DNA of 64,000 bases, taken from NCBI GenBank assembly GCA_019428945.1, contig JAHYJM010000001.1, positions 28,837 through 92,836 on the forward strand, read 5' to 3'. Position 1 is the stretch's first letter; the number at the start of each line of letters is the position of its first letter. The notes under the pieces were generated by a model. That model worked only from the letters and a program-made list of their open reading frames with translations. It was not told the origin of the DNA and ran no database searches. The stretch is from Bacillota bacterium. GTDB taxonomy: Bacteria; Bacillota; Dethiobacteria; DTU022. Position numbers and translations under genes: made by a program. Below, piece by piece: positions 2,481 to 38,215 of the stretch.

Positions 2481-3260
2481 GTGGCGCTACTTGATATTAA
2501 AGACCTGACCTTGCGTTTTGGCGGCCTCTGCGCCGTTAACCAACTTTCACTTGAAATTGAAGAGGGCTCTATCCGCAGTTTAATCGGCCCGAACGGTGCC
2601 GGTAAAACCTGTGTTTTTAACTGCCTGACCGGTTTTTATAAGCCGAGCAGCGGTGATATGGTATTCATGGGTACAAGTATTATGAAGAAAAAACCGCACC
2701 TGATCACCCACATGGGGATGGCACGTACTTTTCAAAATCTGCGGCTTTTTAAACAAATGACTGTAATGGAAAATGTAATGTCCGGAATGCACTGCAGAAC
2801 CAACGCAGCCTTTGCAGGCGCTGTTTTGCGGACACAAAGCCAGAAAGCCGAAGAAAAACTTATTCGGGAAATCGCTGAAGAGTGCCTTGATTTCGTCGGT
2901 ATCCTTGATAAAAAGAATTACATGGCCAAGAATCTTCCTTATGGCGATCAGCGCCGGGTAGAATGGGCCAGGGCGCTGGCCACACAGCCTAAACTTCTGC
3001 TCCTTGATGAACCGGCCGCCGGCCTGAATAAAGAAGAAAAGGCTCGCCTGATTAACCTAATGCGTAGAATCAGGGATGAAAGAAAAGTAACCATATTCCT
3101 GATTGAGCATGACATGGGCCTGGTTATGAAGGTTTCGGAAAAGATTTTTGTAATCGACTACGGGGTTAAAATTGCTGAAGGAACTTCCAAAGAAGTTAGA
3201 GACAATCCAAGGGTAGTAGAAGCATACCTTGGCAAGGAAGAAACGGAGGATGCCGTATGA
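2481..3260 (+). CDS. livG: ABC transporter ATP-binding protein, LivG family
   Basis: Walker A GPNGAGKT, GMARTFQNLRLF, Walker B LLLLDEPAAGLN. Confidence 0.93.
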   Translation: MALLDIKDLTLRFGGLCAVNQLSLEIEEGSIRSLIGPNGAGKTCVFNCLTGFYKPSSGDMVFMGTSIMKKKPHLITHMGMARTFQNLRLFKQMTVMENVMSGMHCRTNAAFAGAVLRTQSQKAEEKLIREIAEECLDFVGILDKKNYMAKNLPYGDQRRVEWARALATQPKLLLLDEPAAGLNKEEKARLINLMRRIRDERKVTIFLIEHDMGLVMKVSEKIFVIDYGVKIAEGTSKEVRDNPRVVEAYLGKEETEDAV

Positions 3261-3973
3261 GCGAAACAATACTAGCTTTAAAAGATCTTGAAACCAGGTA
3301 TGGGCAAATTTACGCTCTGCGCGGCATCAACTTTGAAGTTAAAAAGGGTGAAATTGTAACTCTGTTGGGTGCTAATGGTGCCGGGAAAAGCACGACCCTT
3401 AAAACAATTTCAAGCCTTGTTCCTGCCTCTGCCGGTAGCGTCAATTTTTTCAACGAAGATATTACTCACCTTGATCCTTATGCAATTGTTGAAAGAGGCC
3501 TGATCCATGTACCTGAAGGACGGATGATTTTTAAGGAATTAACTGTACTCGAAAACCTTGAGCTGGGCTCATTTACTCTTAGGGATAACGTTGAACGGAA
3601 AAAAAGAATCGACAGGGTATGCGAACTTTTTCCTGTATTAAAAGAGAGACATAAGCAGATGGGTGGTTTTCTCTCCGGGGGAGAACAGCAAATGCTTGCT
3701 ATCGGAAGGGCCCTGATGACGGAACCGAAAATACTGATGCTCGATGAACCTTCAATGGGACTAGCTCCGATTATTGTTCAGAACATCATGGATATTATCA
3801 AGCAGATCAACAGTGAGGGAACGACTATTTTATTGGTAGAACAAAATGCCAAAGTTGCCCTCAAGCTCGCTGACAGAGGTTACGTTTTAGAGACCGGAGA
3901 AATTGTCATGGAAGGCGATGCAGATGTTCTCAGCAAAGATGAAAGTATTGTAAAAGCTTACCTTGGCGAATAA
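3257..3973 (+). CDS. livF: ABC transporter ATP-binding protein, LivF family
   Basis: Walker A GANGAGKS, LSGGEQQMLAIGRALM signature, ATGA overlap with livG. Confidence 0.93.
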   Translation: MSETILALKDLETRYGQIYALRGINFEVKKGEIVTLLGANGAGKSTTLKTISSLVPASAGSVNFFNEDITHLDPYAIVERGLIHVPEGRMIFKELTVLENLELGSFTLRDNVERKKRIDRVCELFPVLKERHKQMGGFLSGGEQQMLAIGRALMTEPKILMLDEPSMGLAPIIVQNIMDIIKQINSEGTTILLVEQNAKVALKLADRGYVLETGEIVMEGDADVLSKDESIVKAYLGE

Positions 3974-5239
3974 ATGACTAATATTAGTTTCAATAAAACC
4001 GTTCTTTTAATTTGTATTACAATGATCTGCCTCTTGCTAAGCCACGGTTCAGCCTGCGCTGAAGATAACCCGGCTTTAGTTTCAGATAATGATGCTCCTG
4101 AAAAGACTGTGCTTTACTATTTTTGGGGATATTGTCCTGTTTGCAGTAAACCGGAAGAACATGTCCATCTTTTTGAAGATTACCCAATCACGGTAGAGAT
4201 TTATGAAGTTTTTCACGACGAAGAAGGTCGGGCAATTTATGATCAATTCAGTGAAGACCTGGGTATTGAAGTATATGGCTTTCCGACCCTGGTTTTTAAA
4301 GATAAATATTGGCTCGGTTTTTCAGAGACAGTCCAGGTTGAAATTCTAACCGAAATAGAGGCCCACCTCAGTGGTGAAGATAGCGCTGCAGGTCAGATTA
4401 TACAGATACCATTTTATGGCGAAGTTGATCTTCAGGCCTCTCCGTTACTTCTGACAACGGCTATCATAGCTACACTGGACGGTTTTAATCCCTGCTCTCT
4501 ATTTGTTTTAACATTCCTGCTGGCAATAATCGTTCATTCGGCATCACGTAAAAGGATTTTCCTGGTTGGTTTAACTTTTTTGGCAGTAACTTCTGCTGTT
4601 TACGGCCTTTTCATGCTGGGTGTTCTTAATATTATGCTCTTCGCAAGTCAGCTTTTCTGGATTCGCAACATAGTCTCGGCTGTTGTAATTTTACTGGGAC
4701 TGGTGGGAATCAAAGATTTTCTGTTTTTCAAAGAAGGCGTTTCTTTCGTCATTCCCGATTCTTATAAAAAGAAATATTACAGCCAGGTTCGAAATATATT
4801 TTACACGAAGTCAGTAATACCGATGATTATTGCCACGTCTGTGATGGCACTGGGAATTGCACTAATCGAGTTGCCCTGTACCGCTGGCTTTCCTTTTATC
4901 TGGAGCAGTATAGTCAGCACAAAAGATCTACCCTTATCACAGTATGCCATCCTGTTTATAATCTATCTCTTTCTCTACCTTTTGATCGAACTAATTATTT
5001 TTTTTATTGCCGTCATCAGGATGCGATCAGTTAAAATGACTGAAGAGAGGGGACGGATACTTAAGCTCATTGCCGGCAGCCTGATGCTTGTATTAGGTTT
5101 GGTACTATTCTTCAGACCTGGTTATATGGAGAATCTTATTGGGATACTAATCACTTTCGGATCAGCTTTCATTTTGATTTTATTAATGTTCCTTTTTAAA
5201 AAGATTTTTTTAACTGACGTGGGGAGGCAGACCAAATGA
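3974..5239 (+). CDS. Membrane protein: secreted thioredoxin-fold domain (CPVC) fused to CcdA/DsbD-like transmembrane domain
   Basis: N-terminal signal sequence, YYFWGYCPVCSKPEEH and FPTLVF (cis-Pro) Trx features, then about 6 TM segments with FNPCSL and ELPCTAG cysteine-proline motifs. Confidence 0.75.
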   Translation: MTNISFNKTVLLICITMICLLLSHGSACAEDNPALVSDNDAPEKTVLYYFWGYCPVCSKPEEHVHLFEDYPITVEIYEVFHDEEGRAIYDQFSEDLGIEVYGFPTLVFKDKYWLGFSETVQVEILTEIEAHLSGEDSAAGQIIQIPFYGEVDLQASPLLLTTAIIATLDGFNPCSLFVLTFLLAIIVHSASRKRIFLVGLTFLAVTSAVYGLFMLGVLNIMLFASQLFWIRNIVSAVVILLGLVGIKDFLFFKEGVSFVIPDSYKKKYYSQVRNIFYTKSVIPMIIATSVMALGIALIELPCTAGFPFIWSSIVSTKDLPLSQYAILFIIYLFLYLLIELIIFFIAVIRMRSVKMTEERGRILKLIAGSLMLVLGLVLFFRPGYMENLIGILITFGSAFILILLMFLFKKIFLTDVGRQTK

Positions 5240-14644: not shown

Positions 14645-14675
14645 TTGACAAATCAAATTACTTGATCAATAATAC
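14645..14675 (+). promoter_or_regulatory. Putative sigma-A promoter upstream of candidate structured RNA
   Basis: TTGACA 14645-14650, then AATAAT (14669-14674, 18-nt spacer) or TAATAC (14670-14675). Confidence 0.5.
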
Positions 14676-14679
14676 CCTT

Positions 14680-14970
14680 ACCAGGTTCCGAGAGACTGGA
14701 TAGCAAACTGGATCTGGTTTGCAGGGAAAAGCCGGAATGGAAAAAGGGTTAACCGGATTCCAAAGAAGGGTCCCTAAAATAACCAGATCGCTGAAAGAGC
14801 CGGATAATGAAAGGTCGCCAGGCCGGGAATTACCGGAAATCGCAGCACGGATAATAGTAACTTCCTGGAGGTTGAGTGAATGCCATCCAAAGGTGGTGGT
14901 GGAAGCTCAGCTGTAGATGGGCAAGCGAAGAAGATCCGACAGTGAGTTAAAAGGCCTGTTGGGACCTGGT
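14680..14970 (+). ncRNA. Candidate structured non-coding RNA (~291 nt), family unrecognised
   Basis: Terminal 12-bp helix ACCAGGTTCCGA (14680-14691)/TTGGGACCTGGT (14959-14970) with two G-U pairs; internal hairpins GCAAAC/GTTTGC and CCGG-gaatta-CCGG; purine-rich, no convincing ORF; followed by TTTAATTT. Confidence 0.5.
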
Positions 14971-15074
14971 TTTAATTTGTACAATGTTTGCTTATGAGAT
15001 TCTAACCGCTTGTATTTCTTTTACACAAATAATAACATCTACATAAATAACTAACATTACTATTCTTCGTTTCG

Positions 15075-15104
15075 TTGACACTTCTGAATAAACTCTGGTA
15101 TAAT
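15075..15104 (+). promoter_or_regulatory. Consensus sigma-A promoter for the redox complex operon
   Basis: Perfect TTGACA (15075-15080), 18-nt spacer, perfect TATAAT (15099-15104). Confidence 0.75.
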
Positions 15105-33870: not shown

Positions 33871-34143
33871 ATGAAAGGCATGATCAATTTACAGGATACT
33901 TTTCTTAACCAGGCTCGCAAAGAAAATATGTTAACCACAGTTTTCCTGATAAACGGCTATCAGATAAAAGGTGTTGTCCGCAGTTTTGATAATTTTACTA
34001 TACTTCTTGAAGTGGAAGGTAAACAACAGTTGGTTTACAAACATGCTGTTTCGACGATCATTCCCATGCGCAATATCAACCTGAGAACATCTGACAACGA
34101 TGATTCCGGCGATGATGAGGAATCCCCGGAAGAATCGCTTTAG
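33871..34143 (+). CDS. hfq: RNA chaperone Hfq
   Basis: [57 protein letters not shown]; miaA-hfq-hflX synteny; acidic C-tail. Confidence 0.96.
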
Positions 34144-37959: not shown

Positions 37960-38215
37960 TAAAAAAACTTTCGTACAAGAGACGAAAGTTAATTTCCGTG
38001 GTACCACTCTTCTTGGCGGCATAACTTCTACCACCCACTCTTTAAGATAACGGAAGTCTCCGGCCAGGCCTAATTTCGCTCATTGAGAACTGATTTCGGT
38101 TGGCGGCTTACGGAGGAGTTCATTGACATCTTAATTACCGCTTTTCACTCTGCAGCGGCTCTCTGCTAATTAACCTGTCGATTACTGGTTCCGATCATTG
38201 CCTTTATTTTATTGA
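37960..38215 (-). promoter_or_regulatory. T-box leader (probable Leu, CUC specifier) upstream of leuA
   Basis: Minus strand AAGAGTGGTACCACGG antiterminator T-box, terminator AACTTTCGT-CTCTTGT-ACGAAAGTT-TTTTTAT, stem I with ..AATGAACTCC.. candidate specifier. Confidence 0.9.

Follow-up and report, generated by a model that had tools for sequence, protein, structure and literature searches.

A 64,000-nucleotide (nt) stretch of a Dethiobacteria genome (GCA_019428945.1, contig JAHYJM010000001.1, positions 28,837 to 92,836 of the forward strand; hereafter the window) carries an RNA gene between rocD and the genes of a redox complex. An earlier note, made from the sequence, had proposed an undescribed structured RNA at this position. 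Our analysis goes beyond that first reading, in that the RNA belongs to a dispersed family of many copies, whose ends are constant and whose interior varies. The features of the locus are as follows.

14645-14673, + strand: promoter of the RNA, sigma-70/A-type, TTGACA, 17-nt spacer, AATAAT (11 of 12 consensus matches)
14681-14969, + strand: the RNA, type A, 289 nt (same-ended homologues, fold z-score of -4.84, covariation)
14681-14697, + strand: 5' arm of the terminal helix, CCAGGTTCCGAGAGACT, with G14692 as one side of a G·G mismatch (pair table of 97 copies)
14698-14952, + strand: variable, multi-branched interior (type-A consensus structure and covariation; unalignable with distant groups)
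14882-14899, + strand: interior hairpin with the best conservation, GCCATCC ... GGTGGT (helix 12 of alignment A2, 98.6% of cells paired)
14953-14969, + strand: 3' arm of the terminal helix, GGCCTGTTGGGACCTGG, with G14958 as the other side of the G·G mismatch (pair table of 97 copies)
14970-14982, + strand: U-rich tract TTTTAATTTGTAC following the helix, a probable termination site (T-rich positions in most copies)
15075-15104, + strand: separate promoter of the next gene, TTGACA-18-TATAAT (12 of 12 consensus matches)

Judged from sequence, the mature RNA most likely spans 14681-14969. The + strand folds with -111.4 kcal/mol and none of 100 shuffled sequences was equally stable, whereas the z-score of the - strand (-1.29) indicates a stability not far above its shuffles. 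An open reading frame at 14719-14916 was rejected as coding, its frame being broken in every homologue, and no conserved reading frame was found among the homologues of the RNA. Both promoters lie where the earlier note had placed them, and the coordinates it gave for a 12-base-pair (bp) helix with two G-U wobbles (14680-14691 with 14959-14970) are exact. This helix is conserved among relatives, where it is longer than first stated, with 16-17 bp and a fixed G·G mismatch. Two smaller elements from the same source fared less well. A hairpin at 14703-14722 is present, but all six of its base pairs occur in just 4 of 22 type-A copies, and a rival long-range helix is better supported. The motif CGGATAAT does occur twice (14801 and 14848), yet it is unconserved in the homologue alignment. 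The local hairpin and the conserved long-range helix (about 14711-14790) compete, and possibly represent alternative folds.

Homologues were initially sought by blastn over 200 related genomes. This returned full-length matches with 69-86% identity, along with a paralogous second class that these genomes also carry. The catalogue of the family comprises 97 copies of 154-410 nt. Type A, to which the window copy belongs, is about 288 nt long, and type B about 311 nt. Both covary strongly. In type A, both sides have changed in 32 of 66 consensus pairs with 93.9% of cells paired, and in type B in 27 of 76 with 96.9% paired. For neither type did any of 500 shuffles match the covariation, and shifting the partner by one to three columns abolishes both signals.

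The ends of the RNA are nearly fixed (NCAGGUUCCGAGAGRC ... GGYCUGUUGGRACCUGN) and pair as a helix of 16-17 bp with compensatory changes. Among the 97 copies, which were selected partly for pairing at helix pairs 1-9 and not at pairs 10-17, pair 1 occurs as C-G, A-U or G-C, pair 2 as C-G or U-A, and pairs 4, 5 and 14 as G-C or A-U, while the G·G mismatch at pair 12 is kept in 96. Relaxed matches contain further compensated pairs, for example ACAAGTCCC...GGGACTTGT and CCAAATCCC...GGGATTTGG. The interior ranges from about 120 to 375 nt. When distant groups are compared with the window copy, interior similarity is no higher than for shuffled sequence and the ends agree at 13-15 of 17 bases each. 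Within the window's own genome, copies A, B and C retain detectable similarity in their interiors (55-65%, against 51-52% when shuffled), with A and C barely above that background. Interiors are unusually stable when folded alone, with z-scores below -2 in 29 of 33. By these alignments, the constant part of the family is the terminal helix with its fixed G·G, and the variable part is the multi-branched interior.

Variable interiors could hold different seed regions, as in antisense or base-pairing small RNAs acting with or without Hfq. The U-rich 3' end and the occurrence of hfq in 91 of the 98 class genomes are in keeping with this, but the interiors are mostly paired and covarying, leaving little single-stranded seed, and we regard this explanation as improbable. 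The distribution of hfq is irrespective of the RNA and was uninformative for a link to Hfq. The window itself has an hfq gene at about 33889-34077 on the + strand (C18:62725-62913 of the genome), about 19 kb from the RNA.

Flanking genes were named mostly by eye from their translations, some with the aid of Pfam. Most type-A copies with an upstream flank have a rocD-like or aldehyde/P5C-dehydrogenase-like gene there, and most are followed by a proC-like or NuoE/F-like gene. Most type-B copies diverge from an ATP-synthase-beta-like gene on one side and converge with hpt on the other; the hpt locus is probably the oldest. The same-strand genes downstream of type A would suit a cis-acting leader (riboswitch, T-box or attenuator). 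However, the gene after the RNA in the window is preceded by a separate, perfect promoter, which argues against a leader, and the downstream gene is not the same between genera. Type-B and hpt-linked copies are moreover convergent with the gene that follows, an orientation that already contradicts a leader. A T-box or riboswitch leader was rejected on the grounds of this convergence and of the self-promoted window gene, and cis-acting leaders in general appear very unlikely. A T-box leader (RF00230, 124.5 bits) is located elsewhere in the window, at 37975-38207 on the - strand.

The presence of several fixed-end copies per genome might also point to a mobile element or its remnant, such as an intron, a HEARO-like element or the end of an insertion sequence. 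Against this stand the syntenic positions fixed across genera, the promoter on nearly every copy and the covariation, such that we give this idea hardly any credence. Searches of phage and plasmid collections returned no match to the RNA, and an origin from either was rejected on that basis.

The distribution was determined in 98 genomes of the class (Dethiobacteria-type Bacillota). A type-B covariance model detected members in 42, with up to four per genome, and a pattern combining promoter and 5' end matched 47; united, the two cover 52. One further genome from blastn and eight from a relaxed search near hpt bring the total to 61 of 98, although this last step is biased as the relaxed search was run solely at loci with the neighbouring protein described below. 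In a draw of 399 phylum genomes, the pattern matched just class members plus three others (G181, G247 and G129), and a reversed control pattern gave zero matches in the 98 class and 399 phylum genomes. On these matches, the family reaches at least two further lineages outside the class. Named records with the pattern are chiefly metagenome-assembled genomes of Syntrophomonadaceae, Dethiobacter sp. (placed within class Dethiobacteria by NCBI taxonomy) and other Bacillota. A pattern match in a Poribacteria record (L114) has no R1 match and was taken as chance. A record labelled Nitriliruptoria (L113, PUKE01000013.1) contains a typical type-B copy at 297.6 bits, and is probably a mis-binned Bacillota contig. 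Two loci of genome G073 depart from the usual form. In the longest copy (L140, 410 nt) the 3' domain is repeated in tandem, apparently through duplication of a domain within the RNA. L141 contains two near-identical stretches about 1.5 kb apart (3092-3400 and 4611-4918) that match the RNA model over its 3' half only and lack the conserved 5' end; these may be decayed copies within a segment that was duplicated. As far as comparative sequence analysis can tell, this is a new family of stand-alone, non-coding RNA genes that are mainly vertically inherited.

In 95 of the 97 copies the helix begins 6-12 nt, in most cases 7, downstream of a TTGACA-17-TATAAT-like promoter, with a spacer of 17 in 92. 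The two promoterless copies are the second members of head-to-tail pairs, found in two genomes, and start about 5 nt after copy 1. T-rich positions follow the helix in most catalogued copies. In the head-to-tail pairs, the sequence after copy 1 is CAAAG or CAGTG, whereas that after copy 2 is TTCTTTATTG or TTCTTTTTTT, so that the U tract is present after copy 2 only. This restriction of the U tract to the promoterless second copy suggests that terminal helix and U tract together act as a terminator.

We compared the RNA with known families using Rfam 15. At the window RNA nothing scored above threshold, and at E<=10 only chance-level matches far below the cut-offs were obtained; copies in 29 further loci likewise gave no match at the gathering threshold. 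We found no description of the family in the open-access library that was searched, while an existing description elsewhere is possible. The earlier note had named an Rfam match and a lack of covariation as outcomes that would speak against its proposal; the first was not seen above threshold, and the homologues covary strongly. Taken with the literature search, these results support the original proposal, and by this evidence the RNA family is real and undescribed.

6S RNA resembles the new family in that it, too, stands alone and is closed by a helix of its two ends. It is, however, one long hairpin with a bubble at its centre, its model (RF00013) has no match at the RNA, and the window's genome has a separate 6S gene (C166:957-1136, E 2.6e-20). 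6S RNA is detected in 90 of the 98 class genomes. Titration of CsrA in the manner of CsrB/RsmZ was rejected, with no CsrA match in G000, G001, G003, G007 and many other carriers. OLE RNA, which has roughly double the length and dedicated partner proteins, is similarly a stand-alone, highly structured, non-coding RNA of anaerobic or extremophilic Bacillota; the Rfam OLE model matches no copy, and the present family consists of several fixed-end paralogues. Eukaryotic vault RNAs and Y RNAs also combine fixed ends, a variable interior and several paralogues. They differ in domain of life, promoter and size, and the link is one of analogy. GOLLD and ROOL are likewise large, ornate bacterial RNAs without an assigned function, but are longer, and Rfam gives no match between them and the present RNAs.

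One option is an RNA-only, self-assembling ornate RNA like GOLLD, ROOL and OLE, in which the helix has no role beyond closure and termination of the molecule and a dedicated protein does not exist. The folds are multi-branched, purine-rich and very stable, and no protein is strictly tied to the RNA. Homo-oligomers have been reported for three other ornate RNAs, with GOLLD and ROOL described as forming them (PMC12286853). The interiors are however shorter, and too diverse across groups for a single assembly interface, and the fixed G·G and sequence-conserved helix interior resemble a recognised site. We consider the RNA-only explanation unlikely.

A candidate for such recognition is encoded beside hpt. 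This gene (L106 2247-3221, + strand, with homologues at many loci) adjoins hpt in many anaerobic Bacillota. The protein consists of a Cytidylate_kin2 domain and, at its C-terminus, a domain that lacks annotation but is related to T7/T3 endonuclease I (E values of 2.9e-4 and 1.7e-3); the T7 nuclease binds branched nucleic acid. By strict searches of the 98 class genomes, 46 have both RNA and protein, 6 the RNA only, 12 the protein only and 34 neither (p = 1.8e-10, a value that ignores phylogeny and linkage), and the corresponding counts in genomes at least 90% complete are 33, 3, 4 and 23. In a MutS/MutL/MiaA/Hfq tree, joint absences occur in several places, including within the f5 genera, and G017, which has RNA and protein, is nested among genera with neither.

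Several observations weigh against this partnership. RNA, hpt and protein are physically linked, so that one deletion could cause their joint loss. The protein occurs in 27 further phylum genomes with no RNA detected, and no such RNA was seen in those neighbourhoods of the protein that were checked there; an obligate link is weakened by these 27. The reverse, RNA without protein, is seen in three genomes at least 90% complete (G001, G008 and G091), although assembly gaps could explain this. In alignment, the nuclease-like domain has Thr at the position of the T7 endonuclease I catalytic Lys, and Hfq, nearly universal in the class with or without the RNA, is another possible binder. In the well assembled G096, the protein is present and no RNA was found. 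An AlphaFold model of the protein is of low confidence (pTM 0.39); a fold search with it gave nothing at E<=0.001, the weak matches including a putative kinase and PD-(D/E)XK enzymes. Because of the physical linkage and the 27 genomes with protein and no detected RNA, we rank the Cytidylate_kin2/nuclease-like protein as the best partner in candidate status only.

We favour a model of an end-sealed RNA, with a shared protein on the fixed helix and interiors with separate tasks. As transcription ends, the 3' arm would pair with the 5' arm and, with the U tract, likely form a long-range intrinsic terminator. The same pairing would likely seal both ends of a long-lived RNA. The fixed helix may then serve as a common docking site for one shared protein, for which the fusion beside hpt is the best candidate, while the differing interiors could give each paralogue its own trans task as an RNA-protein particle. 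Covariation, compensatory helix changes, constant promoter distance, conserved synteny, stable interiors and the lack of a conserved open reading frame support this model, which as a whole we consider about evenly balanced between right and wrong. A bolder version proposes a modular system around the kinase/nuclease-like fusion, with a protein-read G·G helix that also terminates and exchangeable structured cores, several per genome; this we offer tentatively, and doubt more than we believe.

We claim novelty for the RNA family and not for a mechanism. The family is sizeable and well supported, and joins the few structured RNAs of bacteria that stand alone. Its hosts are little-studied anaerobes, many from soda-lake type sediments. 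In the head-to-tail copies, nature has provided an experiment on intrinsic termination over a long range. Furthermore, the combination of a fixed end module with cores that change freely is unusual and can be tested, and one protein may serve many RNAs.
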